Origin: Thermomonospora catenispora
Lineage (GTDB): Bacteria > Actinomycetota > Actinomycetes > Streptosporangiales > Streptosporangiaceae
Assembly: GCF_006363815.1 (NCBI RefSeq)
Contig: NZ_RRYT01000006.1
Location: 62,216 to 126,215, forward strand
DNA length: 64,000 nucleotides
Reading direction: 5' to 3'
Made by a program: the position numbers and the translations under genes. Numbering within the stretch: position 1 is the stretch's first letter; the number at the start of each line of letters is the position of its first letter. The notes under the pieces were generated by a model. That model was not told the DNA's origin and ran no database searches. It saw nothing but the letters and a program-made list of their open reading frames with translations. Below are positions 24,486-38,252 of the stretch, piece after piece.

Positions 24486-26336
24486 GTGAGAAGGGCTGTG
24501 GGAGGTCCGTTGTACGGCGGGGTCGAGCTCGACGGCCGATACCGGTTGGAGGAGGCCGTCGGCCGAGGAGCGATGGGCGAGGTGTGGCGGGGTGTGGACC
24601 GCCGACTCGGTCGTTCCGTGGCCGTCAAGATCCTGCCGCCCGCCCGACGCGCCAGGCCGGAGCAGGTGGAGCGTTTTCGGCGCGAGGCCCGGATCGCCGC
24701 CGCCCTTCAACACCCCGGGATCACGGTCGTCCACGACGTCGGGGAGCACAACGGGCTGCTGTACTTCGTGATGGAGTATCTAGAGGGCGAGGACCTCGCC
24801 AAGGTCGTGCGGAGGAACTCCGAGGGCCTTCCCATTGACAGGGTGCTCGGCTTCGGCATCCAACTCGCCGACGCCCTCGGCGCCGCCCATGGACGCGGAG
24901 TCGTGCATCGGGACGTCAAGCCCGCGAACATCATGGTGACCGCGTTCGACCGGACGAAGATCTGCGACTTCGGCGTCGCCCGCATAGTGGAGCGGATCGA
25001 CGGTGAGAGCGGGACCAGGGGCATCGGCACGCCCCTCTACACGGCGCCCGAGCAGTTCGAGGGACGGGCCGGCGCGCAGGCGGACCTCTACTCGCTGGGC
25101 TGTGTGCTCTATGAACTGCTCACCGGCTGCCCGCCGTTCCACGGCACACCGTTGGAACTGATGCGCAGACACCAGAGCGAGTTCCCACAGCCGGTCCACA
25201 CGCTCAGGAGCGATGTGCCGGACGAACTCGACGCTCTGGTGGCGGAGCTCCTCGAGAAGGAGCCGGCCAAGCGTCCGCAGGACGCGCAGTCGGTCAAGAC
25301 GCGCCTGCGCGATCTTCGGCGCAGGCTCCGTGAGGCCTCTGCCGAACGGGAGATCGCCATAACACCGCAGACGGGCGGTCGTCCCGCCCCATCGGGGCGT
25401 AGAGGCACTGGAGAAAAACTCGAACCGCCGCCGCTCTCCCTTCTTGAGGCGGCTGAGGGCCTCCACGCCGAAGAGGGCCGCGTCTCCTCGGAAGCTGGAG
25501 CGGTGCGATTCGGCGATGTGCTCGGCTTCGCGCCGGACGCCGACGACCGTCCCCTCGCGGTGGCGATCGGCCGCGGCGACGCGGGGCCCCTCGTGGCCGA
25601 CCTGGCGTCACTGCCTCACCTCTTGATCGCGGGTTCTGTGACGGCGGAGAAGTCCGCGGCGGTCCACGCAATCGTGTCCTCGCTGCTCATGCGCGTCCCT
25701 CCGGACCGCGTCCGCATGATCCTGGTGGACTCGGAGCGCGCCGAGCTGTCGGCGTACGCAGGCGTTCCCCATCTCCTCACCCCGGTGGTGACCGATGCCG
25801 GCTCGGCGATCGGAGCGCTGCGTTGGGTGGAGGAGGAGATGGAACGCCGCTACGACGACCTCGCCGCCCATAAGTGTCGCGATATCGACGCCTACAACGA
25901 GGTCATGCGCAACGGCGGGTTCTCGGCCTCGAGATCCGGCTCCGACGGCCGGATCCACCCGCGCATCGTCGTGGTGCTCGAGGAGCTGAACGAACTCATG
26001 GCGATCTCTCCACAAGAGACCGAGGAGCTCGTCGGACGCCTCGCCCGAACGGCGCGGGCCGTCGGCATCCACCTCGTCCTGGCCACCCGACGGGTGACCG
26101 GCCGAGTCCTCCCCCGCCGGATCAGAGCCGACATCCCATCTCGCCTGGCCTTCAAGATGAACTCCCCGGAGGAGAGCGATCTGGTCATCGAACGACCGGG
26201 AGCGGAACGTTTGCGCGGCACGGGGGACGCCCTCTACCTACCGAAGGGCTCATCGAAACCGATCGAGATTCGATGCGCTTCGCCCTCGGAACACGAGATC
26301 GAATCAATCGTCGACCACTGGGTGGTGCATCATTAA
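24486..26336 (+). CDS. Ser/Thr protein kinase fused to a degenerate FtsK/SpoIIIE ATPase domain
   Basis: 616 residues from GTG 24486 (GAGG upstream); ATG 24372 in the same frame is an alternative. Residues about 15-275 are a PknB-type kinase with all key motifs: GRGAMGEVW, VAVK (about K47), HRDVKPAN (about D143), DFG (about D161), APEQ. After a linker, residues about 340-616 match the FtsK/SpoIIIE motor: HLLIAGS...KSAAVHAIVSSLL, IVVVLEELNELM, AVGIHLVLATRR, IPSRLAFKMNS, GDALYLPKGSSKPI. The P-loop reads GSVTAEKS (K389) instead of GxTGSGKS and the Walker B Asp is E499, so ATP hydrolysis there is doubtful. There is no membrane helix. It probably phosphorylates partners sensed by the pseudo-motor. 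Confidence 0.82.
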   Translation: MRRAVGGPLYGGVELDGRYRLEEAVGRGAMGEVWRGVDRRLGRSVAVKILPPARRARPEQVERFRREARIAAALQHPGITVVHDVGEHNGLLYFVMEYLEGEDLAKVVRRNSEGLPIDRVLGFGIQLADALGAAHGRGVVHRDVKPANIMVTAFDRTKICDFGVARIVERIDGESGTRGIGTPLYTAPEQFEGRAGAQADLYSLGCVLYELLTGCPPFHGTPLELMRRHQSEFPQPVHTLRSDVPDELDALVAELLEKEPAKRPQDAQSVKTRLRDLRRRLREASAEREIAITPQTGGRPAPSGRRGTGEKLEPPPLSLLEAAEGLHAEEGRVSSEAGAVRFGDVLGFAPDADDRPLAVAIGRGDAGPLVADLASLPHLLIAGSVTAEKSAAVHAIVSSLLMRVPPDRVRMILVDSERAELSAYAGVPHLLTPVVTDAGSAIGALRWVEEEMERRYDDLAAHKCRDIDAYNEVMRNGGFSASRSGSDGRIHPRIVVVLEELNELMAISPQETEELVGRLARTARAVGIHLVLATRRVTGRVLPRRIRADIPSRLAFKMNSPEESDLVIERPGAERLRGTGDALYLPKGSSKPIEIRCASPSEHEIESIVDHWVVHH

Positions 26337-27249
26337 GGCCCCGCCCGACGAGCGGAAAGGCGCCATCAGCCCTGCTCACCGCTGAGCCGCATGCCGAGTT
26401 CACCGGCGTCGGGCATCTCCTGCGACGAAGCCCCGTCCCGCCACCGGGCCGAGACCGGTCCCAGTGCCCCTCGGCCTCCCCCACCCCCGCCTTCCATTTC
26501 GTTGAGGCACCTCAGCGGCTCATATATCGATGCGCTCGGCGGCGCGGATCAACGGACACGACAGAGTCAGTGGACCCGTCTCCGATCCGATAACTCACGA
26601 AAATTCTCTAACACCACCTCAGATTCAAGGAATACAAAAGCTCAGGCACCGAACCCGGCGACCCATCAATACAAGAGCAGACCAGACGCGCATCGCATAA
26701 ATTTCAACCCCACAAAGCGGCCATCAAAATCCCGACGGCGAGCGATCGAGATATATTCCCACAAGGCCCGAGAGGGCGACATGACAGCCCTTAACGAAGA
26801 CGACACTTGAAGAAGCCGGAATCAAACACACCGAAAACCGCCCCAAAGAACATGGTCGCATCATCCAGAAAACCCGAAGAGAAAAAATCCAAGCGAAGCG
26901 CCCTCGCCGTCTCCGGCAACTATGAAAAGTCGCGAGCGACACAATCAATATTCAAGTCGAAGGTGGACCATAGGATTCTTCGCCTCCCAGGGGCGACGCC
27001 ATGTCGGATGCCACCGAGGCGGACAACACCCTTATCCGTTCAAGTGATACGTCCGGTGTCGAACTCGATCAAGCGGACCATGTCCTGCACTTCGTTGACT
27101 GCAGGCGGACGGAGCCCATCCGCCGTGGTGCCCAGGGCGTCCTCTGGGCGCATCCTGGAGCGGACTCCGGTGCGTTGGGCGTTCCGTTCCATGGACGACC
27201 GAATATCACCGTCTCGTGAAATCGTGGCCGTCGGGAACCGCTCGGTGCC
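26337..27249. other. Spacer, AT-rich in its middle
   Basis: About 900 bases between the convergent kinase and helicase genes. The part 26590-26950 is visibly AT-rich and Lys/Asn/Ser-coding in several frames, unlike the rest, and looks acquired. One weak small frame (27001-27219) is listed separately; otherwise nothing is recognised. Confidence 0.4.
27001..27219 (+). CDS. Possible 72-residue protein
   Basis: ATG 27001 follows AGGGGCGACGCC, a fair ribosome site, and the first 35 residues are acidic and natural-looking (SDATEADNTLIRSSDTSGVE). It has no recognised domain and its end lies 30 bases before the helicase stop on the other strand. It may be chance. Confidence 0.25.
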   Translation: MSDATEADNTLIRSSDTSGVELDQADHVLHFVDCRRTEPIRRGAQGVLWAHPGADSGALGVPFHGRPNITVS

Positions 27250-29352
27250 CTACGGGACGGGGATGAAGTCACGGAGGAAAGGGCTCGGGGCGCCGTGCCA
27301 GGAGATGTAGAGGAGTTCGCGTGCGCGGCTGCAGGCGACGAACAACAGACAGCGCTCCCGTTGCAGGTCGTGGGAGTGGGCCGTTTCGTCGTCCTCCGCG
27401 GGGCGCACCGCACCAGGCGCGGGGAGATGGTGTTCGCCTGCGCCGATGAGTGCCACGCAGCGGAATTCCAGGCCCTTCATGCGGTGCATGGTCATCGTCT
27501 GGACGTGGCCCTCGACAGGGCTCTGCTCGCGTGACAGGTGGCAGGCCGGGACGCCCGCCCGCTGGAGGGAGCGGGCCGCTTCCTGGGCGAGCGGGCCGGA
27601 ACGGGCAGCGATCCCTATCTCGTCGGGCTCCACGCCCGCGTCCAGCCACTCGCGGACCTTAGCGGTCAGTCTCCGGAGCTCCTCGGTCCTGGTGTTCGCG
27701 GGGGCGAGTTCGGGGGGCGGGCCGTGCGTCTCGGAGCGGAAGCCCCTCAGCGACGCCGGCGCGTCGTCGAGGTCCTCGATCCGTTCCCCGGCCAGCAGGC
27801 CGTGGCTCCAGGCGAGGATCTCCGAGGTGGTGCGGTAGTTGACGGTCAGGCGGACGGAACGACCCGCCACGTCGATCCCGACCGACCGCAGCGAGACCCG
27901 GTTGTCGTAGATCCGTTGATGGGTGTCGCCAGCGATGAACAGGTCGTCCCGTCCCGGGGGCACGAGGGCGCGAAGGAGCCTCCAGCGAACGGGGTGCAGG
28001 TCCTGGGCCTCGTCGACGATGACGTGATCGTAGGGCTTGTCGTCCCGCTCGGAGAGGATCCTCGTCGCCTCCGCGCACACGGTCTCGTAGGTGTGGGCGT
28101 TACGGGCCTCCAGTTCCCGTAGGAACTCGGAGATCACGTGCCAGACCTGGGTGCGCTGGACGGGGCCGAGACGCCTGCCGCGCCCGGTGCGGCGCACGGC
28201 GAGATACTCGTCGAGGGTGTGCAGGTCGTGGGCGAGCACGATCTGACGCCACTCCTCGGCGATGAAGGTCGCATTGTGGTCCACGCCGCGGTCGCGGATG
28301 ATCCGCTCCCACAGTCGTTCTTCGTCGGAGTCCTTGACGAGGGCATAGGGCCCGCGGTGGGAGCGGACGATGCGCGCGGCGACCTGGTCGATGTGTCGGA
28401 CGTCGATGCGGGCGAGGACCTCTTCCCTGTTCTCCAGCAGACGCAGCCCTTCGAGCAGGGATTCGGCCAGCGTGGAGGTGAACGTGGTGAGCAGCACGCG
28501 TCCGCCTCGGGCGGCAAGGTGTCGGGCGCGGTGCAGCGCCACCACCGTCTTTCCGGTTCCCGGGCCGCCGGTGACCTGGGCGGGGCCGGAGTAGGTCCCA
28601 TAGGCGACGTCCCGTTGGGTCGGGTGGAGATAGACGCGCCACAGGGCGAAAGGCTTTTCGAACAGGGCCATCAGCTCTTCGGGGCCCTCGACGAACGCGA
28701 TCCTGGACGGGGTCCGCTCCATCGCGCCGACGATGTCGTCGGCGTCGTACGGTTCCGTGTCCGCGGCGTCGATCACCTCTTCGGCGATCTCGTCGGGGGA
28801 CAGGCCCGCGGCGAGGCCGATGAGGACGTCGTACTGGGTCTCGGGCAGGTAGTCCTTGATCGCTTCCAGCGGTCCGGGATCGGTGAGCAGCCTGGCGAAG
28901 ACCCGGATCTGCTCGTCGATGCCGAGCCGGGCCATGTCCTCATCGGACACGTGCGCGAAGAGCCGTTCGGGCTCGGGGGCGGAGGTGGTGCGCGCCAGTT
29001 CCTCGGTGGCGGCCTCGACCGCATGGGAGTCCCAGATCTCCATGTGCCCGGTGGTCGTGTTGACCGACACCCGGCGGCGTTCCGCCCACGCGTAAGCCTC
29101 ATCGTGGGGCAGGACCTTCAGGAGAGTGAAGCGGTCCCCGCCGTCGGGCGCAAGGACGATGCCGCGGACGGACCGGTCGATCCGGATGCTCTTGAGCCGG
29201 TCGTCGCGCACGCCGTTGATCTTCTCCAGGTGAATTCCGGCGTGTGTGGCCTGCTCGAACTTGAGGATGGCGTTGACGACCTTCCGCTGGACGGAGCGGT
29301 CCAGCGAGATCAGGTCTCGAAGGAAGTCACGGTGGATGCCCAGCCTGGCCAC
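27250..29352 (-). CDS. UvrD/Rep-type helicase with an N-terminal RelE-like domain
   Basis: 700 residues. Residues 1 to about 95 resemble a RelE/ParE toxin-fold domain (RDFLRDLISLDRSVQRKVV, LKSIRID, RGIVLAPDGGDRFTLLKVLP). A linker follows, then a superfamily 1 helicase with motif I GGPGTGKT at 262-269, motif II VDEAQDL, an NYRTT segment, motif V-VI TMHRMKGLEF and VACSRAREL. RelE-like plus UvrD proteins occur in bacteria next to other helicases and are suspected defence components. Whether the RelE part still cuts RNA cannot be judged. It lies downstream of DrmB but behind a strong terminator, so it may have its own promoter in 29353-29464. Confidence 0.83.
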   Translation of the reverse strand: MARLGIHRDFLRDLISLDRSVQRKVVNAILKFEQATHAGIHLEKINGVRDDRLKSIRIDRSVRGIVLAPDGGDRFTLLKVLPHDEAYAWAERRRVSVNTTTGHMEIWDSHAVEAATEELARTTSAPEPERLFAHVSDEDMARLGIDEQIRVFARLLTDPGPLEAIKDYLPETQYDVLIGLAAGLSPDEIAEEVIDAADTEPYDADDIVGAMERTPSRIAFVEGPEELMALFEKPFALWRVYLHPTQRDVAYGTYSGPAQVTGGPGTGKTVVALHRARHLAARGGRVLLTTFTSTLAESLLEGLRLLENREEVLARIDVRHIDQVAARIVRSHRGPYALVKDSDEERLWERIIRDRGVDHNATFIAEEWRQIVLAHDLHTLDEYLAVRRTGRGRRLGPVQRTQVWHVISEFLRELEARNAHTYETVCAEATRILSERDDKPYDHVIVDEAQDLHPVRWRLLRALVPPGRDDLFIAGDTHQRIYDNRVSLRSVGIDVAGRSVRLTVNYRTTSEILAWSHGLLAGERIEDLDDAPASLRGFRSETHGPPPELAPANTRTEELRRLTAKVREWLDAGVEPDEIGIAARSGPLAQEAARSLQRAGVPACHLSREQSPVEGHVQTMTMHRMKGLEFRCVALIGAGEHHLPAPGAVRPAEDDETAHSHDLQRERCLLFVACSRARELLYISWHGAPSPFLRDFIPVP

Positions 29353-29509: not shown

Positions 29510-31387
29510 TCACTCGTCGAGGGCGAAGTAGCCGACCGAGGATTCGTCGGGGGTGCCGATGAGCATGGCCCGGTCGAGGAAGGTGTTGTTGGTCTCGCAG
29601 CTCGTCTCCGGCAGCAACACGCAGGCGTAGCAGGCCGCGAGGTTGAGGCTGTCGACCCCGCCCGCCTCCGACTCCATGCAAGGGGGGTCCTGCGAGCACC
29701 ACGACACCCGCCTCAGCGCCGACTCCAGGGAGTTCCGCAGGTTCTTGTACTCGCCCTGGGCGACGACCCCGCCCAGGCTGCCGGCGGAGTCGCTGGTGGC
29801 GGTGTAGATCAGCAGCCCGGCCATGTCGTGGGAGACGTACAGGCGTTCCCGCAGCGAGGCCGCCGGGTAGCCCGACTCCAGGCTCCACTCGTTGATGAGC
29901 GCGTGCGCCAGGGTGTGCAGCAGGATGTAACGAGCGCTGATCGGCGACTGGATCTCTCGGACGGCCTTGGGGTTCGTCGCCATGATGCGACGGCGGAGCG
30001 CCGCGGTGTGGTTGTCGCGGATCCGGTCGGCCCGCTGGCGGACCCCCTTCTGCCGCTCCCACTCGCCCAACCTGGCCGTGTCCAAGGTCAGGAACACGCC
30101 TTCGCCGATGACCTCGACGGCCGGGAGCCACCCCTTGTCCTCAATGGACAGGGCCGCCCTTCGGGTCTCGGGCGTCGTGGAGTCGGGCGCCTCGACCCGG
30201 GTGAACGACCACAGGGCGCGAACTTCGCGGAGCCGCTTGACCTGCATCGAGCGTTCGATCCCGACCGGAAGGGGGGTGTCGGGATCCTCCGGAGGCCTGG
30301 TGCATTCGAAGTCGTCTTCGCGGTCGACCGACGCTGTTCCGAACAACAGCCGCTCGTATTCCTCCCGACGCAGTTCACCGGCCGCCTCCAACGGCTCTCG
30401 CCCGTCGGAGTCCGCGACTTCGCTCTCCTCCAACTGCACCCGAAGCTGGACCGCTTCGATGACGTCCTTGGGGGTGAAACGTGAGGCGTCCAGAATGCCG
30501 CTCGCCCGGATGAGCTCCTCGAGGGATTCATACGACACCCTCCCCTCCCGCCACAACCGCACCGATGACTTCAACATCGGGTACTGGCTGCAGTTGAGCC
30601 GTTTTTGCAGGGTCTCCGACCACGGTGGGATGGACAGCGCCGAGCGGACTATCGGGAACCAGACGGCGGAAGAACCGCGCTGCAGGGTGCGGGGAATCGC
30701 CTTGCAACCGGACTGCTCGGCTCCCCGCCCGAGCCAGGGACGGCGCCCTTCGCAGAAGATATTGAGCGATCTCAGGGCGTTCCGGGAGAAGGCACCCTCC
30801 ATGGAGGCCTCCTCGCCGCACGAGCAACGGATGATCACCGAGCGCAGCGACGCCGTCCGTCCGGTGCTGTGCAGAGTCAGTCGGTGCCCACGACCTGGAT
30901 CTGCGCCTTTATGCACCCACTTGGCGTAGGGAAAATCATCCAGATGCCCGTTCTCGCAGGCGATCACGAAGCGGGAGGGCGTGAGCAGTTTATCGCACGC
31001 TCCGCATCGACTCGTTCCCGGAGGCGAGCCGAACTTATGGAACTCCTTCAGTTCATGGCATCCCGGGCATGAATAGAACTCGGGAAAGAGCCTAACCCGC
31101 ACGCCGTCCCCGGTCGACGAACTGGCGGCGGGAGGCAGCCGGAAGCCGTCCACACCGAGCCGGCGCTCCAGGCGAGGCTCGTGGATGGTGATCGAGGTGT
31201 CGAGATTCCAGGTGTCGAGTCCGCTGATCACATAAGACTGGTCTCCGATGGCGACCATCGCCCCGACCCCGTAGGTGGTGATCATCTGTGCCCTGCGCAC
31301 CCCGCCCAAGGGCGTGCGAGACGCCCGGCGGGCGCCGCGACCGGTCCGGACCCGTCCAGCTCTCCGCTGTGCCATCGCCATGTTCAT
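29510..31387 (-). CDS. drmB: DrmB-like protein (DUF1998)
   Basis: 625 residues from ATG 31387, which overlaps the DrmA stop as ATGA. The N-terminus has the DrmB opening (RRAQMITTYGVGAMVAIGD). Two CxxC pairs (CPGC and CGAC) form a likely zinc ribbon at about 105-135, then CENGHLDDFPYAKWVH. The C-terminus is the DUF1998 region (LLHTLAHALINEWSLESGYP, SHDMAGLLIYTATSDSAGSLGG) with four more cysteines (SWCSQDPPC and ACYAC). DrmB is the partner of the DrmA helicase in DISARM; the DrmAB pair recognises or loads on invading DNA. No DISARM methylase, PLD protein (DrmC) or DrmD/DrmE is present in this window. Confidence 0.88.
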   Translation of the reverse strand: MNMAMAQRRAGRVRTGRGARRASRTPLGGVRRAQMITTYGVGAMVAIGDQSYVISGLDTWNLDTSITIHEPRLERRLGVDGFRLPPAASSSTGDGVRVRLFPEFYSCPGCHELKEFHKFGSPPGTSRCGACDKLLTPSRFVIACENGHLDDFPYAKWVHKGADPGRGHRLTLHSTGRTASLRSVIIRCSCGEEASMEGAFSRNALRSLNIFCEGRRPWLGRGAEQSGCKAIPRTLQRGSSAVWFPIVRSALSIPPWSETLQKRLNCSQYPMLKSSVRLWREGRVSYESLEELIRASGILDASRFTPKDVIEAVQLRVQLEESEVADSDGREPLEAAGELRREEYERLLFGTASVDREDDFECTRPPEDPDTPLPVGIERSMQVKRLREVRALWSFTRVEAPDSTTPETRRAALSIEDKGWLPAVEVIGEGVFLTLDTARLGEWERQKGVRQRADRIRDNHTAALRRRIMATNPKAVREIQSPISARYILLHTLAHALINEWSLESGYPAASLRERLYVSHDMAGLLIYTATSDSAGSLGGVVAQGEYKNLRNSLESALRRVSWCSQDPPCMESEAGGVDSLNLAACYACVLLPETSCETNNTFLDRAMLIGTPDESSVGYFALDE

Positions 31388-33180
31388 CGCTCCAAATAAA
31401 GGTCGGATTCGACGTCGACGTCCCGCAGACTCCACAAGGTTTGATATGCGAGGTCGAGATCCTCATCCGCGTGGGAGCGCAGCAATGCGGCGCCCTTCGC
31501 ACGGGATTCGTCGTGTTTGAGATTCGCCGGCGCCTCGTAGACCAGCTTCGGGTTGCGGGCCGCCAGCCACCGCCACCTCTCGATGATGCCGTCGAGGTCT
31601 CTTTCGGTGCCGTGGAGCTCGTCGGACGCGTCCGGCGCGATCGACTTCACCCGCGCCAGGATCAGGTCCTTGAGCTCCTCGAGACGGTTGACGAAGGACT
31701 CCACGTTCCCGGCGGCGCCGTTCGGGCGGGCCTCGGGGTACAGCAGCCGGGCCATGCCCACGAGCACCGCGTGCAGGGCTCGGTCACGAGTCCGAGGCGA
31801 GAAGGGGGTCACGCTCGTCGACTCCACCTGCCGGTACAGCGCCGAGTGATAGGAGGTGAAGTTCTCATAGTGCGAGCGGTCCCGGGAGCGGGCCGCGTTG
31901 AACAGGACGACCACCAGCCCAGGGTGCCGCCGGCCGACCCGGCTGCTGGCCTGGATGTACTCGGCGGTGGTCTGCGGCTGCCCCATGATCGCCATCAGGC
32001 CGAGCCGGTCCACGTCGACGCCGACGGAGATCATGTTGGTGGCCAGGACCGCGTCGAGGGCGTCCTCGTCGGGCAGCGCCCGTTCCAGGTCCTTCAACCG
32101 CTGCGGGATGTCGCTGGACTTCACGCGGCTGGTCAGCTCCGACAGCAGCTCGGCCGGGCGCGGGACGACCCCCTGTCGTCCGGCCAGTAGTTTGAGGCGG
32201 TCCTGGACGTCGTCGTGGAACTGCAGTTCGGCGGCAGCCAGCAGACGAAGGCTGTTGAAATAACCGACGAGCGTCCAATAGGCGTCACGGACGGCGTCCT
32301 CTCCCCCGATGTCGGCCGCATGGTGCAGCAGCGCCGCGTAAGTCCGCACCCACAGCGTCGCCTGGCTGAGGTGGGTGGTGAGCAGTCCCACGTACCGGCG
32401 AGAGGCCTTATCCTCTGCGGGGGCCTCGACCGCGAACCAGGAGTCGCGGGCGTCCAGTCCGGCCGGAGGGAACTGGCACACCCGCCGGTTGAACAGGCTC
32501 CGCACCTGTTGTTCGGCGCGACGGATCGTTGCCGTGGAGGCGATGACCTTCGGTTCGTCCGCGGCGACGTCGACGGCGGTCTCGTACAGACCGGCGAGGC
32601 TGCCGAGCGGTCCGGAGATCAGGTGGAGCTCGTCCTGCACGATCAGCTCCGGCGGCGGCGTCCCCTCCGGAGCCCCGCTCCGGTTGAACAGGGCGGCGAC
32701 CTGTCCTCGCCATGTGATCTGCGCGAATTTGTCGACCGTCGCGATGAGCAGCGTGGGCCGGACCCGATAGATCCGCTCGTCCACAACGTGGACCGGCAGC
32801 TCCTCGTGGAAGTCGCACTCGTCGGAGGAGCAGAACGTCCGCATGCGCGAGGTCTCGAGGTCTACCTCGTAGTTCCAGGCGTCCATCGCGGTGCCGCACC
32901 AGGGGCAGACGCGCAGCTGGACGGGGTTCTTCTCCTGCAGCTCCTCACCGGCACGCAGGCGTTCGAGGCTGGTCGCGGCCTCGGCGATGGTGTTGGGGGT
33001 GGCCGCGCGGCCCACCCACATGCCCAAGGAGATCGGTTCCTCCCCCAGCGGCCTCGGGATGCCGACATATCGCAGGCCATCGCCCATCGCCGCCTGCGTG
33101 AGGGCATCACCGCGCCGACCGCACAGGCCTTCACCCCGCATCAGGTCCAGGCCCGCCGTCGATCCGGTGGGCACGACCAT
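31384..33180 (-). CDS. drmA: DrmA-like helicase, lacking its motif-I half
   Basis: 598 residues; known DrmA proteins are about twice as long. Present are the segment with EPISLGMWVGRAATPNT, a four-cysteine zinc site (CPWCG...CSSDEC), motif II as QDELHLISGPLG, motif III-like IASTATIRR, and the C-terminal lobe (ATNMISVGVDVDRLGLMAIM, EYIQASSRVGRRHPGL). The Walker A lobe is absent, and no other frame upstream of 33180 carries it; instead the sequence meets debris and the 149-bp repeat. The gene is probably 5'-truncated, so helicase activity is unlikely. It is translationally coupled to drmB. Confidence 0.75.
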   Translation of the reverse strand: MVVPTGSTAGLDLMRGEGLCGRRGDALTQAAMGDGLRYVGIPRPLGEEPISLGMWVGRAATPNTIAEAATSLERLRAGEELQEKNPVQLRVCPWCGTAMDAWNYEVDLETSRMRTFCSSDECDFHEELPVHVVDERIYRVRPTLLIATVDKFAQITWRGQVAALFNRSGAPEGTPPPELIVQDELHLISGPLGSLAGLYETAVDVAADEPKVIASTATIRRAEQQVRSLFNRRVCQFPPAGLDARDSWFAVEAPAEDKASRRYVGLLTTHLSQATLWVRTYAALLHHAADIGGEDAVRDAYWTLVGYFNSLRLLAAAELQFHDDVQDRLKLLAGRQGVVPRPAELLSELTSRVKSSDIPQRLKDLERALPDEDALDAVLATNMISVGVDVDRLGLMAIMGQPQTTAEYIQASSRVGRRHPGLVVVLFNAARSRDRSHYENFTSYHSALYRQVESTSVTPFSPRTRDRALHAVLVGMARLLYPEARPNGAAGNVESFVNRLEELKDLILARVKSIAPDASDELHGTERDLDGIIERWRWLAARNPKLVYEAPANLKHDESRAKGAALLRSHADEDLDLAYQTLWSLRDVDVESDLYLER

Positions 33181-33813: not shown

Positions 33814-35268
33814 ATGCCCCAAAAAGGATGGCCCGAAATGAATCCGAGAGAGCGCGATGAGCTCGAACCCCAGCGAATCCCCGTGGTCGTCGTATGCGGC
33901 GCCACAGGAGTGGGCAAGACCACCATGATAAACACGCTGTTCGGACGAAAAGTCGGCGAGGTGGGACGCATTACCCGAGGGACCGTCAAGGACGCTCGCC
34001 ACGTTTGGGAAGCTCAAGGAGAACACATCCATGTAATCGATCTTCCCGGGCTGGGCGATAGCGAAGATCTCGATAATGAGTTCAAGGAGATCTATCGCCG
34101 TTACGCGCCGACCGCCGACGGATTCATCCTGGTCACCACACCTCCCCGCCCAGCGCACCGGGGAACTCTCGACACCGTCAAAACCCTCCTGGATTCCGGG
34201 GTCGAGCCAGGAAAGATCATCTTTGCGCTAAACCGATTGTCTTTGTTGGACCGCGAAACAAATGGGACTCGCGAGTCCATTACGATCAATGGCTTCGAAG
34301 GCCCCACACTTCCGTGGGAACACGAATTGATCGAAGAGCAGAGGAAACAGTTCCTAAAGGACCTTGCCAGAGGACTGAAACGCGATGATCTATCCCTGGA
34401 ACGAGTCATTCCTTTCGATGCCTTTACAGGATGGAACCTCCCTCTACTGCTACACCGGCTGGTCGATATCCTCCCGTATGCCACTGCCAGTGAAACGGAG
34501 GAGATGGTCGATCAGTCCTTGGACGATATGCGCGCATCCATCTCAAGCCGACTGCGCGCACAGCGCGAAGCCGCTGAAGCCGAGCTGGCCAGGAAGTCCA
34601 GAGAGCTTGAGCAACAGCAGCTAAAGCGAACCCAACTAATGGTCGACCTCCTGAAAGAAGAAATCGATAACCTAAAAGACGAAATTGATAACACTAAAGA
34701 AGAGCTCAGGAGATTCAAGTCAGAGTTGCGAGAAGTGAAAAGCATGCAGCCCCGCACTACGGGCGAATCTGCCGCTTCATCCAGCGCATGGACAAATTCC
34801 CCACGTACACCTTCCGAGGACAAGCGCACCACGGCGGCAAAGTGGGACTCCAGCCGAACCGATGCGCCCAGCGCCCACCGCACCGGAGAGAACCAGGGCA
34901 GAACCGAGAAAGACGGCCGAAAAAATGATCGAGAAGTTTCTCGAAGGCTGCCCCCCGACTCCACACCACCCTCTTCCAGGGGTAATGACACACGTGAAAA
35001 GTTGGCCCAATTGGAGCAGGACATCCAGCGCAAGCAGGAAGAGAAGAGACGACTCGAAAAAAAGATAGACTCTTTGGGAGAAACGGAAAAAGAGGCAATT
35101 TCCCAGATAGAGGAGAGTCGCGTTGCCATCAAGAAGGGGATACTGGCGCGAGTCAAAGAAAAGCTAAAGAGAATTTGGCCGACCGTGGGAGCCAGTCTCA
35201 CTGCCAGCGCAATCGCACAAGGAGGGCGGAGACTGCTGGCCTGGCTACGGGATCAAAGCACATTCTGA
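33814..35268 (+). CDS. GTPase with long coiled coils
   Basis: 484 residues. An Era/HSR1-like G domain has P-loop GATGVGKT (29-36), a Thr-containing G2 region (RITRGTVKD), G3 DLPG at 76-79 and a weak G4 N140-R-L-S instead of NKxD, so base specificity may be relaxed. Residues about 230-310 and 400-455 are heptad coiled coils separated by a polar low-complexity linker. The end (ILARVKEKLKRIWPTVGASL...RRLLAWLR) is amphipathic and may touch membrane. The layout recalls dynamin- or GIMAP-like proteins that assemble on membranes or phage structures. Codon use is AT-richer than neighbours and the gene sits alone between inverted transposase-derived repeats, so it is mobile or recently acquired. ATG 33814 is chosen (AAGGGA upstream); ATG 33838 is possible. 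Confidence 0.78.
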   Translation: MPQKGWPEMNPRERDELEPQRIPVVVVCGATGVGKTTMINTLFGRKVGEVGRITRGTVKDARHVWEAQGEHIHVIDLPGLGDSEDLDNEFKEIYRRYAPTADGFILVTTPPRPAHRGTLDTVKTLLDSGVEPGKIIFALNRLSLLDRETNGTRESITINGFEGPTLPWEHELIEEQRKQFLKDLARGLKRDDLSLERVIPFDAFTGWNLPLLLHRLVDILPYATASETEEMVDQSLDDMRASISSRLRAQREAAEAELARKSRELEQQQLKRTQLMVDLLKEEIDNLKDEIDNTKEELRRFKSELREVKSMQPRTTGESAASSSAWTNSPRTPSEDKRTTAAKWDSSRTDAPSAHRTGENQGRTEKDGRKNDREVSRRLPPDSTPPSSRGNDTREKLAQLEQDIQRKQEEKRRLEKKIDSLGETEKEAISQIEESRVAIKKGILARVKEKLKRIWPTVGASLTASAIAQGGRRLLAWLRDQSTF

Positions 35269-35522: not shown

Positions 35523-35939
35523 CAATGCTCGCGGGCCTTAGGAGCACGCTGCGATCGAGCACCTCAAGATGCGCGCCGAACCGCCGGAAGCGCCGGCCGT
35601 CCCGCCCTTCGGCGTCGGATGCGGACGGAGCGGCGGCTCCCGCATCCCGGTCGCCGGGACGGCCTGGAGATGAACGTCCGCTTCCGGTGCGCCGACACCG
35701 GTCTCGCCGAGAGACCCTCGCCGATGCGTCGGGTCCGTGCGCACGATGAGGCGGAGGCCGAGGCGCCGAAGAGGCCGGTCGGACGCCGGGGCCGTCGTCC
35801 GACCCGCCTCCGGCGGACGTCGCGGATTCCGCCGTGATCGTCATGCCGCGGCGCGGGAGGCGTTGCGCGTGTTCTCCGCCCTTGCACCGAGACGGCCGGG
35901 ATGAGGCCGCTTTTCAGGTCCGGGCCGGGGAGCGGGGCC
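35523..35939. other. Spacer before recD2
   Basis: About 420 GC-rich bases with no motif-bearing frame. The recD2 promoter should lie here; I cannot place it. Confidence 0.4.
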
Positions 35940-38252
35940 GTGACCCGGCACAATGCTGATGTGCATGATCCGCGTCCTTCGCCGCAGGTCGGTGCGTCCG
36001 AGGCGGTCCGGGGCGAATCGGTGCTGGAGGCGGTGCTGGAACGCATCACCTTCGTCAACGAGGAGACCGGATACACCATCGCCCGGGTGGCCACCGAACG
36101 GTCCGGCCCCGACCTGTTGACCGTGGTGGGGCCGCTGCAGGGCGCCCAGATCGGCGAGAGCCTGCGGCTGCGCGGCCGGTGGACCTCCCACCCCAAGTAC
36201 GGACGGCAGTTCCAGGTGCATTCGTTCACCACGGTGCTGCCGGCCACCGTGCAAGGGCTGCGGCGGTACCTGGGGTCCGGGCTGATCAAGGGGATCGGCC
36301 CGACGATGGCCGAGCGGATGGTGGATCACTTCGGCACCGACATCCTGCGGGTCATCGAGGAGGAGCCCGAGCGGCTGACCGAGGTCCACGGGCTGGGGCC
36401 CAAGCGGATGCGGCGGATCGCCGAGGCCTGGGAGGAGCAGAAGGCCATCAAAGAGGTGATGGTGTTCCTCTCGGACGTGGGGGTGTCCACCTCGCTGGCG
36501 GTCCGCATCTACAAGACCTACGGGGACGCCGCCGTCGACGTGGTGCGGGAGGAGCCCTATCGGCTGGCCGCCGACGTGTGGGGCATCGGGTTCAAGACCG
36601 CTGACACCATCGCCCAGGCGGTCGGCATCCCCCACGACAGTCCGGAGCGGATCAAGGCCGGCCTGCGCCACACCCTCTCCCAGGCCGCCGACGACGGGCA
36701 CTGCTATCTGCCCGAGCCGAACCTGCTCACCGAGGCCGCCAAGATCCTCCAGGTCGACCCCGCCCGGGTCGGTCCCTGTCTGGAGGAGCTGGCCGCGGAC
36801 GAGGGGGTGGTGCGGGAGACGGTGCGCACCGTCGGCGGTCACCAGGTGCCGGCGGTGTATCTGCCGCCGTTCCATCGGGCCGAGTGCTCACTGGCGACCG
36901 CTCTGCTGGGGTTGCTGCGCTGCGACGTCGACCGGCTGAGCTCCTTCGGCGAGGTGGACTGGGAGGCGGCGTTGGGCTGGCTGGCCCGGCGCACCGGCCA
37001 GCGGCTGGCCGAGGAGCAGCGTCAGGCGGTCCGGCTCGCGCTCACCCGCAAGGTCGCCGTGCTCACCGGCGGCCCGGGCTGCGGCAAGAGCTTCACCGTC
37101 CGTTCGGTGGTGGAGCTGGCCCGGGCCAAGAGGGCCAAGGTGCTGTTGGTCGCCCCGACCGGTCGCGCCGCCAAGCGGCTGGCCGAGCTGACCGGTCACG
37201 ACGCCTCCACCGTGCATCGGCTGCTGGAGCTGCAGCCGGGCGGGGACCCCAAATACGACCGCGACCATCCGCTGGACGCCGACCTGGTGGTGGTGGACGA
37301 GTGCTCCATGCTGGACCTCATCCTGGCCAACAAGCTCGTCAAGGCCATCCCGCCCGGTGCGCATCTGCTGCTGGTGGGCGACGTCGATCAGCTTCCCTCG
37401 GTCGGTGCCGGGGAGGTGCTGCGCGACCTGCTGGCCGCCGACGCCGTCCCGCATGTCCGGCTCACCAGGATCTTCCGGCAGGCGCAGCAGTCCGGGATCG
37501 TGGTCAACGCCCACAAGGTGAACGCCGGTGAGCCGCCGGCCCTGACCGGTTTCGACGACTTCTTCTGGTTCGGTTGCGATCCGCCCGCCGACTCCGGTCT
37601 GCATCCGGCGGAGGAGACCGCCAAGCTGGTGGTCGACATCGTCGCCCGCCGCATTCCCGCTCGTTTCGGGCTGGATCCCCGCCGGGACGTGCAGGTGCTG
37701 GCCCCCATGCATCGGGGTCCGGCGGGGGCGGCCAGTCTCAACGCCCTGCTGCAGGAGGCGCTCACCCCCTACCGGGAGGGTGTTCCCGAGCGCCGTCACG
37801 GCAGCCGGGTGTTCCGTCCCGGCGACAAGGTCACCCAGCTGCGCAACAACTACGACAAGGGCCGGGCCGGGGTCTTCAACGGCACCGTCGGCGTCGTCAC
37901 CGCCGTCTCCCCCGAGGAGGGCGTCCTCACCGTCACCACCGACGAGGACGAGAGCGTCGACTACGACTTCGCCGAGCTCGACGAGCTCGCTCATGCGTAT
38001 GCGGTGACCATTCACCGGTCGCAGGGCAGCGAGTACCCGGCCGTGGTCATTCCCGTGACCATGAGCGCCTGGATGATGCTGCAGCGCAACCTGCTGTACA
38101 CGGCGATCACCCGGGCCCGCAAGCTCGTCGTCCTGGTGGGGTCCCGTCGTGCCCTGGCCGTCGCCGTCCGCACCCCGGGGGCGGGCCGCCGGCACACCGC
38201 GCTCGCCCATCGTCTCCAGTCCGCTTTCCGGCCTTCCTCGCAGCCGGGATGA
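35940..38252 (+). CDS. recD2: RecD2-type DNA helicase
   Basis: 770 residues from GTG 35940 (GGGGAG upstream). An OB-like N-terminus is followed by tandem helix-hairpin-helix motifs (GLIKGIGPTMAERMVDHFG, VHGLGPKRMRRIAEAW, VWGIGFKTADTIAQ). A superfamily 1B helicase core then has motif I GGPGCGKS (Cys-Ser in place of the usual Thr-Thr), motif II VVDECSML, LLVGDVDQLPSVGAG and the C-terminal HRSQGSEYP and AITRARK. This is the stand-alone RecD2 form with the long N-terminal extension, a 5'-3' helicase in recombination and replication-fork repair, independent of RecBC. It stands alone and is ordinary for its family. Confidence 0.92.
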   Translation: MTRHNADVHDPRPSPQVGASEAVRGESVLEAVLERITFVNEETGYTIARVATERSGPDLLTVVGPLQGAQIGESLRLRGRWTSHPKYGRQFQVHSFTTVLPATVQGLRRYLGSGLIKGIGPTMAERMVDHFGTDILRVIEEEPERLTEVHGLGPKRMRRIAEAWEEQKAIKEVMVFLSDVGVSTSLAVRIYKTYGDAAVDVVREEPYRLAADVWGIGFKTADTIAQAVGIPHDSPERIKAGLRHTLSQAADDGHCYLPEPNLLTEAAKILQVDPARVGPCLEELAADEGVVRETVRTVGGHQVPAVYLPPFHRAECSLATALLGLLRCDVDRLSSFGEVDWEAALGWLARRTGQRLAEEQRQAVRLALTRKVAVLTGGPGCGKSFTVRSVVELARAKRAKVLLVAPTGRAAKRLAELTGHDASTVHRLLELQPGGDPKYDRDHPLDADLVVVDECSMLDLILANKLVKAIPPGAHLLLVGDVDQLPSVGAGEVLRDLLAADAVPHVRLTRIFRQAQQSGIVVNAHKVNAGEPPALTGFDDFFWFGCDPPADSGLHPAEETAKLVVDIVARRIPARFGLDPRRDVQVLAPMHRGPAGAASLNALLQEALTPYREGVPERRHGSRVFRPGDKVTQLRNNYDKGRAGVFNGTVGVVTAVSPEEGVLTVTTDEDESVDYDFAELDELAHAYAVTIHRSQGSEYPAVVIPVTMSAWMMLQRNLLYTAITRARKLVVLVGSRRALAVAVRTPGAGRRHTALAHRLQSAFRPSSQPG

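Follow-up and report, generated by a model that had tools for sequence, protein, structure and literature searches.

A Hanks-type kinase joined to a degenerate FtsK-type motor beside DISARM-like genes in Thermomonospora catenispora and its relatives

HerA/FtsK-type domains have been captured for defence against invaders in DndH and other proteins, where they are joined to a nuclease domain and called ATPases (PMC10853773; this and the other articles cited were available in part, and statements drawn from them apply to those parts). In FtsK itself, R620 is the arginine finger of the Pseudomonas aeruginosa protein, the finger reaches the neighbouring subunit, and R661 is a loop-I arginine touching DNA (PMC7321959). 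In DISARM, the closest described defence system with DrmA and DrmB, DrmC is reported to be non-essential (PMC9142583). Here we describe a gene from a 64,000-nucleotide stretch of Thermomonospora catenispora DNA (contig NZ_RRYT01000006.1; ‘the window’ is this whole stretch). An FtsK-type domain would again have been recruited for defence, but it is joined to a Ser/Thr kinase and is degenerate. On balance, and with considerable reserve, we favour the interpretation that the product serves a DISARM-like defence as an accessory regulatory subunit, its pseudo-motor docking or sensing and its kinase signalling.

One reading frame for a kinase and an FtsK-type domain

The gene and its landmarks are as follows.

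24486..26336, + strand: kinase-FtsK fusion gene, 616 aa from GTG 24486; probable start TTG 24510
24500..24505, + strand: GGGAGG, probable ribosome-binding site for TTG 24510, read from the sequence
24540..25295, + strand: Hanks-type Ser/Thr kinase domain, residues 19-270 (Pfam PF00069, 168 bits)
25548..26096, + strand: FtsK/SpoIIIE motor domain core, residues 355-537 (Pfam PF01580, 138 bits)
25632..25655, + strand: degenerate Walker A GSVTAEKS, residues 383-390 (GATGAGKS in housekeeping FtsK)
25968..25997, + strand: Walker B region VVVLEELNEL, residues 495-504; Glu replaces Asp at 499, Glu500 is retained
26055..26057, + strand: Arg524, equivalent of the FtsK arginine finger R620, assigned by spacing match to PMC7321959

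The frame runs uninterrupted from GTG 24486 to the stop ending at 26336 (616 codons, no internal stops) and is open further 5′, to GTG 24147. TTG 24510 is the likelier start because GGGAGG precedes it; the alignment of the fusion of Streptomonospora nanhaiensis to the window protein begins at the residue of this TTG. A first-pass annotation, made from the letters of the window, had claimed a single gene with a kinase carrying all its motifs and an FtsK domain, and had suggested a domain search, a structure prediction of residues 340-616 and a search for the same fusion elsewhere. The claim is borne out by the single frame and by the two Pfam matches, for which the cut-offs are 31.7 bits (Pkinase) and 24 bits (FtsK_SpoIIIE), and a six-frame search of the genome with the same FtsK model recovers the gene at 140.7 bits. 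The kinase is of the PknB-like Ser/Thr type, with glycine loop, VAVK Lys, HRD, DFG and APE all present, and its top PDB sequence matches are PknA and PknB.

In an AlphaFold2 model of residues 341-616, built from an alignment of 28 rows that are mostly canonical FtsK and hence biased towards that fold, 10-residue blocks have mean pLDDT values of 86-98, with a single block at 68. FtsK motor structures lead the Foldseek ranking, the top match being the Escherichia coli FtsK motor (2ius, E 6.8e-31, rmsd 2.0, 38% identity). The FtsK half is therefore predicted to have the motor fold; it is about 45% identical to the FtsK of its own genome. The kinase half is poorly modelled because few kinase relatives are present in the alignment (four kinase-bearing rows).

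Two trivial explanations were discarded. An assembly join of two separate genes is ruled out by fusions in the single-contig genomes G156, G173 and G243 (G, L and C numbers denote genomes, loci and contigs), and the complete record NZ_CP113264.1 likewise carries a kinase-FtsK fusion. Split genes were suspected from one in-match TGA in each of G077, G156, G206 and G033; the frames turned out to be single and open, and the TGA is probably an artefact of the alignment end point.

Fusions across the family and the fate of the motor residues

The same architecture was found elsewhere: at least 20 fusions in 20 genomes of the window's family, the window included. Thirteen are linked to drm genes (window, L067, L070-L077, L127, L154, L156) and seven, called solo fusions below, are not (L068, L069, L125, L126, L128, L129, L130). 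The set was built from searches of family genomes, a closer look at the match in G182 and DrmA neighbourhoods. Few candidates were scored per genome and all distribution counts are lower bounds: in one family search the fusions of G005, G077, G033 and G073 surfaced by their kinase halves alone, another matched the window and G182 fusions over the kinase part only and missed those of G230 and G149, and the matches shown in a later one omit the fusions of G000, G182, G230 and G149. A class-wide search (394 genomes, two candidates scored in each) gave full-length matches that, among those shown, all fell within the window's own family. Uniqueness to the window genome, suggested by 100 family and 5 genus genomes (its own included), was overturned by the first relative, that of S. 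nanhaiensis (L029, 50% identity to the window fusion), and by others. The closest relative is L076, with 62% identity.

Twelve fusions, ten of them Drm-linked, were checked for kinase motifs. Glycine loop, Lys, HRD and DFG are intact in all twelve and APE in eleven, the solo fusion L069 having PPE. In L154 and L156 the kinase domain was also found by Pfam.

The motor half has fared differently. The first-pass annotation had noted two lost P-loop glycines, and in the window those at positions 4 and 6, two of the three in FtsK, are indeed gone, with Lys-Ser retained. It had also noted Glu for Asp in Walker B, which reads VVVLEEL against LVIVDEL in housekeeping FtsK. The overall description of a kinase fused to a degenerate motor holds well beyond the window, but this particular substitution does not, being common to just 2 of the 13 Drm-linked fusions. 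The window protein gave no match to the FtsK alpha and gamma domain models at E 0.01 (Pfam), and alpha was unmatched in four of the nine Drm-linked fusions scanned (window, L076, L154 and L156).

Compared position by position, the degeneration belongs to the Drm-linked family and not to the window gene alone. The GxxxxGK[ST] Walker A is intact in one Drm-linked fusion (L077) versus six of the seven others, and most solo fusions retain both Walker A and Walker B; in L071 and L072 the P-loop is deleted. Over 96 columns near-invariant in 23 FtsK sequences (16 genomic, 7 from viral contigs), mean retention in the 13 Drm-linked fusions is 56%. The sensor Gln is kept in none of them, the DPK Lys and the loop-I Arg equivalent to R661 in one each, and the Walker A Lys in two. 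All 13 retain, among others, Arg524, Glu500, His378, His529 and Arg553. New residues have also spread: Arg521 (10/13) and Arg533, Arg545 and Arg596 (9/13 each) are absent from the 23 FtsK sequences, and Trp612 (10/13) occurs in two of these. We read this pattern as suggesting a change of use, not simple decay. DNA contact by the motor half is probably weakened, since the R661 equivalent is so rarely kept, yet the K643 position of loop II holds Lys in seven fusions and Arg in two more, and the window also has the loop-II Arg equivalent to R632. Because loop II is partly kept and arginines have been gained, DNA contact without translocation stays a candidate; translocation by Drm-linked fusions is unlikely.

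In the FtsK tree, which includes 11 of the 13 Drm-linked halves, a branch with 100/100 support has all of these on the same side. Ratios of dN/dS were obtained by simple counting, with many dS values above 1 and most near saturation: FtsK halves gave 0.27 for L071-L072 (dS 0.41), 0.29 for window-L076 (dS 1.08; kinase half 0.25) and 0.24 for the solo pair L068-L069. These ratios indicate purifying selection on both halves of the fusion. The window fusion evolves no faster than that of L076 (relative-rate test, 51 window-unique versus 48 L076-unique changes, chi2 0.09). Both have Ala-Glu at P-loop positions 5-6 and Glu in Walker B, and both lack FtsK alpha. Because the Ala-Glu and the Walker B Glu also occur in L076, where DrmA is full length, the changes to the motor probably preceded the breakdown of the window's defence system.

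The drm island and the possible role of the fusion

In the relatives, the gene order is 1579-aa protein, UvrD helicase, DrmA, DrmB and often an N-extended UvrD helicase, followed by the fusion on the opposite strand. In seven loci (L067, L071-L075, L127) the N-extended helicase and the fusion, as called, run into each other at their 3′ ends, with an overlap of 4-23 bases. In L073 (5442-9051) this helicase is in two parts, with a 475-aa opposite-strand frame between them. The window keeps the following genes.

27250..29352, - strand: UvrD-like helicase, convergent with the fusion; ~240 extra residues at the N terminus
29510..31435, - strand: DrmB family protein (NF038324, 490 bits; PADLOC)
31384..33180, - strand: truncated DrmA, equivalent of residues 542-1098 only of the full-length L076 relative

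The location beside defence-type helicase genes, also part of the first-pass description, is thus confirmed. The 700-aa window helicase matches GajB models. Its N-terminal part gives three weak PDB matches, the best (E 0.0013) to an engineered protein; a RelE fold there is unconfirmed, with no Pfam match at E 1 and a single-sequence model of pLDDT 42.

Five stretches extending further upstream (L148-L152) each hold an HTH protein, a DUF6339 protein and two cytosine-5 methyltransferase homologues, and four of them a homologue of a 397-aa protein; domain names were obtained from the L151 copies only, and the direction of the methylase genes differs among the islands. Homologues of the 1579-aa protein are present in the 12 nearest-group islands searched besides the window (L148-L159). 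In L151 (11442-16181), the copy that gives the 1579-aa size, a Tiamat/sacsin-like N-terminal part, with a TmtA match confined to residues 31-556, is joined to a RadD-like SF2 helicase.

Searched for in the window with cut-offs of E 1e-15 and 90 bits, the upstream UvrD helicase, the 1579-aa protein and the two methylases all went unmatched; genome-wide, the 1579-aa protein has just a 35% match over 201 residues. With DrmA truncated and the upstream genes gone, the defence system of this genome is, by its gene content, a remnant. It follows that the window fusion may work with DrmB and the helicase only, or may be in the course of being lost. The first ~41 codons of the DrmA frame are non-homologous to DrmA and place a rearrangement near 33057. 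A 913-base gap between fusion and helicase (26337-27249), with a G+C dip to 54% at 26500-26999, is possibly an insertion. Beside the DrmA break lies a GTPase gene (33814-35268) with a weak LeoA dynamin-like match (PADLOC, 62 bits), and close to the remnant a RecD2-type helicase gene (35901-38252). In L076, whose DrmB is 72% identical to that of the window and whose DrmA is 82% identical over the C-terminal half, full-length DrmA, DrmB and the upstream helicases are present and the N-extended UvrD helicase is absent.

How closely the fusion follows DrmA was examined in 250 family genomes, 42 of which gave 45 DrmA matches at a threshold of E 1e-100. The nearest group comprises 17 loci, 16 at ≥59% identity to the L076 DrmA (itself included) and the truncated copy of the window, and the fusion is present at 12 of them. 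The N-extended UvrD helicase accompanies the fusion at 10 of 13 fusion loci versus none of the five nearest-group loci lacking it (Fisher p 0.0065, indicative only as the test takes related genomes as independent).

These observations lead us to the scheme already put forward. The N-terminal kinase, its motifs being intact, would be active. The FtsK-type domain would keep the motor fold and the arginine finger and have lost the residues for ATP turnover, and since these are gone we propose that it serves as a docking or sensing platform in place of translocation. The platform would bring the kinase to a nucleoprotein complex, for which DrmAB, an FtsK-type ring and the partner UvrD helicase are candidates; there the kinase might phosphorylate a component of the system and set its activity, up or down, with a presumed effect on phage. 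What the sequence comparisons demonstrate, and the scheme builds on, is the architecture, the family, the neighbourhood, the pattern of losses and the selection on both halves.

Several points weigh against it. The fusion gene is convergent with the Drm operon and lies outside it. It is absent from 5 of the 17 nearest-group loci (G015, G190, G157, G223 and G030, with 6.1-8.5 kb seen past DrmB), from all ten loci judged at 53-56% DrmA identity (5.6-8.8 kb seen; in the eleventh, G168, the contig stops just past DrmB) and from the 11 stretches with DrmA loci of other families that were examined from 24 matches; at 38-42% identity it is missing from the two loci examined of 17. Other families have relatives of the N-extended helicase close to DrmA and no fusion there (L182, L183, L184). 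A dead motor is not universal, L077 retaining both Walker A and Walker B, and Drm-linked motors may bind nucleotide without turning it over. Finally, constraint is weaker on the FtsK half than on the kinase half in 19 of the 21 pairs reported, the dN/dS of the FtsK half spanning 0.23-0.48. As a separate observation, G077 (contig C7) and G106 (contig C8) each carry two distinct DrmA-type loci, one with the fusion and none seen at the other.

A different possibility, to which we give limited credence, is that the FtsK half co-assembles into rings of host FtsK or another FtsK-type machine and so delivers the kinase to the septum or onto moving DNA, with the finger acting in trans although the half's own site is dead. 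The finger equivalent is kept in 13/13 Drm-linked fusions while canonical Walker A is lost in 12/13, and because of this retention binding of a Drm-linked fusion to another FtsK-type subunit is possible; however, Arg524 lies within a conserved RAxGxH motif and folding may explain why it is kept. Three of the seven solo fusions have an FtsK half close to the host gene, a match that co-assembly would favour. The FtsK halves of L125, L068 and L130 are 99.9%, 98.4% and 96.7% identical in DNA to their own ftsK (dS 0.01, 0.06 and 0.08; comparators L132 for L125 and L131 for L068). The remaining four have dS of 0.23-0.45, among them L126 (0.32) and L069 (0.45), which share the junction and show no excess match to the host gene. 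Drm-linked FtsK halves are just 34-53% identical to their own FtsK protein (10/13 measured). Co-assembly with host FtsK is credible in some of the solo fusions and less credible in the Drm-linked ones.

The solo fusions also inform on origins. L068 and L125 have kinase, linker and junction in common, and their kinase halves differ by dS 0.21, their fusion FtsK halves by 0.26 and their genomic ftsK genes by 0.23. Sharing of the three parts places the fusion before the species split. As each nevertheless matches its own ftsK, the FtsK half has probably been overwritten by the gene of its genome, most simply via gene conversion; repeated recent fusions are less likely given the shared parts. L130, with an unrelated kinase, may have been fused separately and recently. 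The kinase tree (row L048_kin duplicates L076_Drm and is disregarded) groups six solo kinases in one clade (100/99); their separation from the Drm-linked kinases has support of 89/96, too little to decide, and a long branch sets L130 well apart. Kinase-FtsK fusions thus seem to have arisen at least twice, probably three times. It is conceivable, though we would not put it higher, that a kinase was repeatedly grafted onto the cell's own FtsK, that some solo copies, kept matched by conversion, ride or imitate the host segregation ring and report invasion or segregation trouble, and that the Drm line became a pseudo-ATPase sensor module.

Quite improbable is that the window gene is simply decaying, its motifs lost by drift after the local system broke down. 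The truncated DrmA and the missing upstream helicases and methylases fit such an account, but the motor changes shared with the full-length system of L076 make the loss look older than the truncation, and the window-L076 dN/dS values and the even relative rates speak against drift. Slightly less credible is a working motor that moves DNA, or senses it through its pore, and thereby switches the kinase: L077 and most solo fusions do have both Walker motifs, and basic residues persist in loop II, but among Drm-linked fusions canonical Walker A and the loop-I Arg are each lost in 12/13 and the sensor Gln in 13/13, and FtsK alpha goes unmatched in several. The least probable is an integrated decoy, the FtsK half serving as bait that resembles host FtsK and the kinase sensing phage interference with FtsK-type proteins, for although L068 and L125 match the host copy despite the greater age of kinase and fusion, and the architecture arose more than once, four of the seven solo fusions are without a close match and the Drm-linked forms no longer match host FtsK.

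Whichever applies, the fusion joins Hanks-type kinases and hexameric DNA motors, which are rarely combined. Within a single conserved family the P-loop ranges from intact to deleted, a natural experiment in how a motor can be made into a scaffold. The solo fusions, in two of which host sequence has apparently replaced the FtsK half, offer a direct route to the question of whether bacteria monitor or modify their own FtsK ring via a fused kinase. If the pseudo-motor docks as we propose, DISARM-like systems would gain a phosphorylation layer, unmentioned in the available parts of PMC9142583 and PMC12458937.

Comparison with described systems

The earlier remark that no well-described protein has this architecture agrees with the literature searched. 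No description of a kinase-FtsK fusion was found in the available parts of PMC12458937, PMC9142583, PMC10853773, PMC12839542, PMC11090510 and PMC7321959, and no title or abstract opening among the matches listed in literature searches names one, supplements and subscription papers being outside their scope.

Domain by domain, resemblances are easily found. The window kinase half matches the models of the defence kinases PD-T4-6 (294 bits) and MADS mad6 (256 bits), and the FtsK half those of SspH (115 bits) and the MADS FtsK-like mad8 (85 bits). The resemblance to PD-T4-6 and MADS is generic and at the level of domains, mad6 and mad8 being separate PADLOC models. PknA and PknB, nearest in sequence to the kinase, are membrane kinases with other C-terminal parts, not FtsK fusions. 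The FtsK/SpoIIIE translocases share the motor fold and the identity noted above; the window protein differs from them in lacking canonical Walker A, sensor Gln, loop-I Arg and any alpha or gamma match, and in its added N-terminal kinase.

Among whole systems, ARMADA type II (PMC12458937) resembles the window locus in that its helicase is also N-extended. Its BrxHII-like and PglX-like genes were unseen among the island genes scanned here: there was no match to PglX, and the island SF2 genes match PbeA far better than BrxHI/II. The words kinase and FtsK do not occur in the main text of that paper, as far as available. As for DISARM, the relatives of the window have adjacent full-length DrmA and DrmB, DrmA being truncated in the window itself, and the five upstream-extended islands hold cytosine-5 methyltransferase homologues. 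Among the island genes scanned, which were not all of them, no DrmC/PLD match was found, and the available main text of PMC9142583 is without the word kinase. In place of the DISARM complement, the islands have the 1579-aa Tiamat-like/SF2 protein, a UvrD helicase, often its N-extended counterpart, and the kinase-FtsK fusion, which on this comparison we rate as a candidate new type of subunit within a DISARM-like system.
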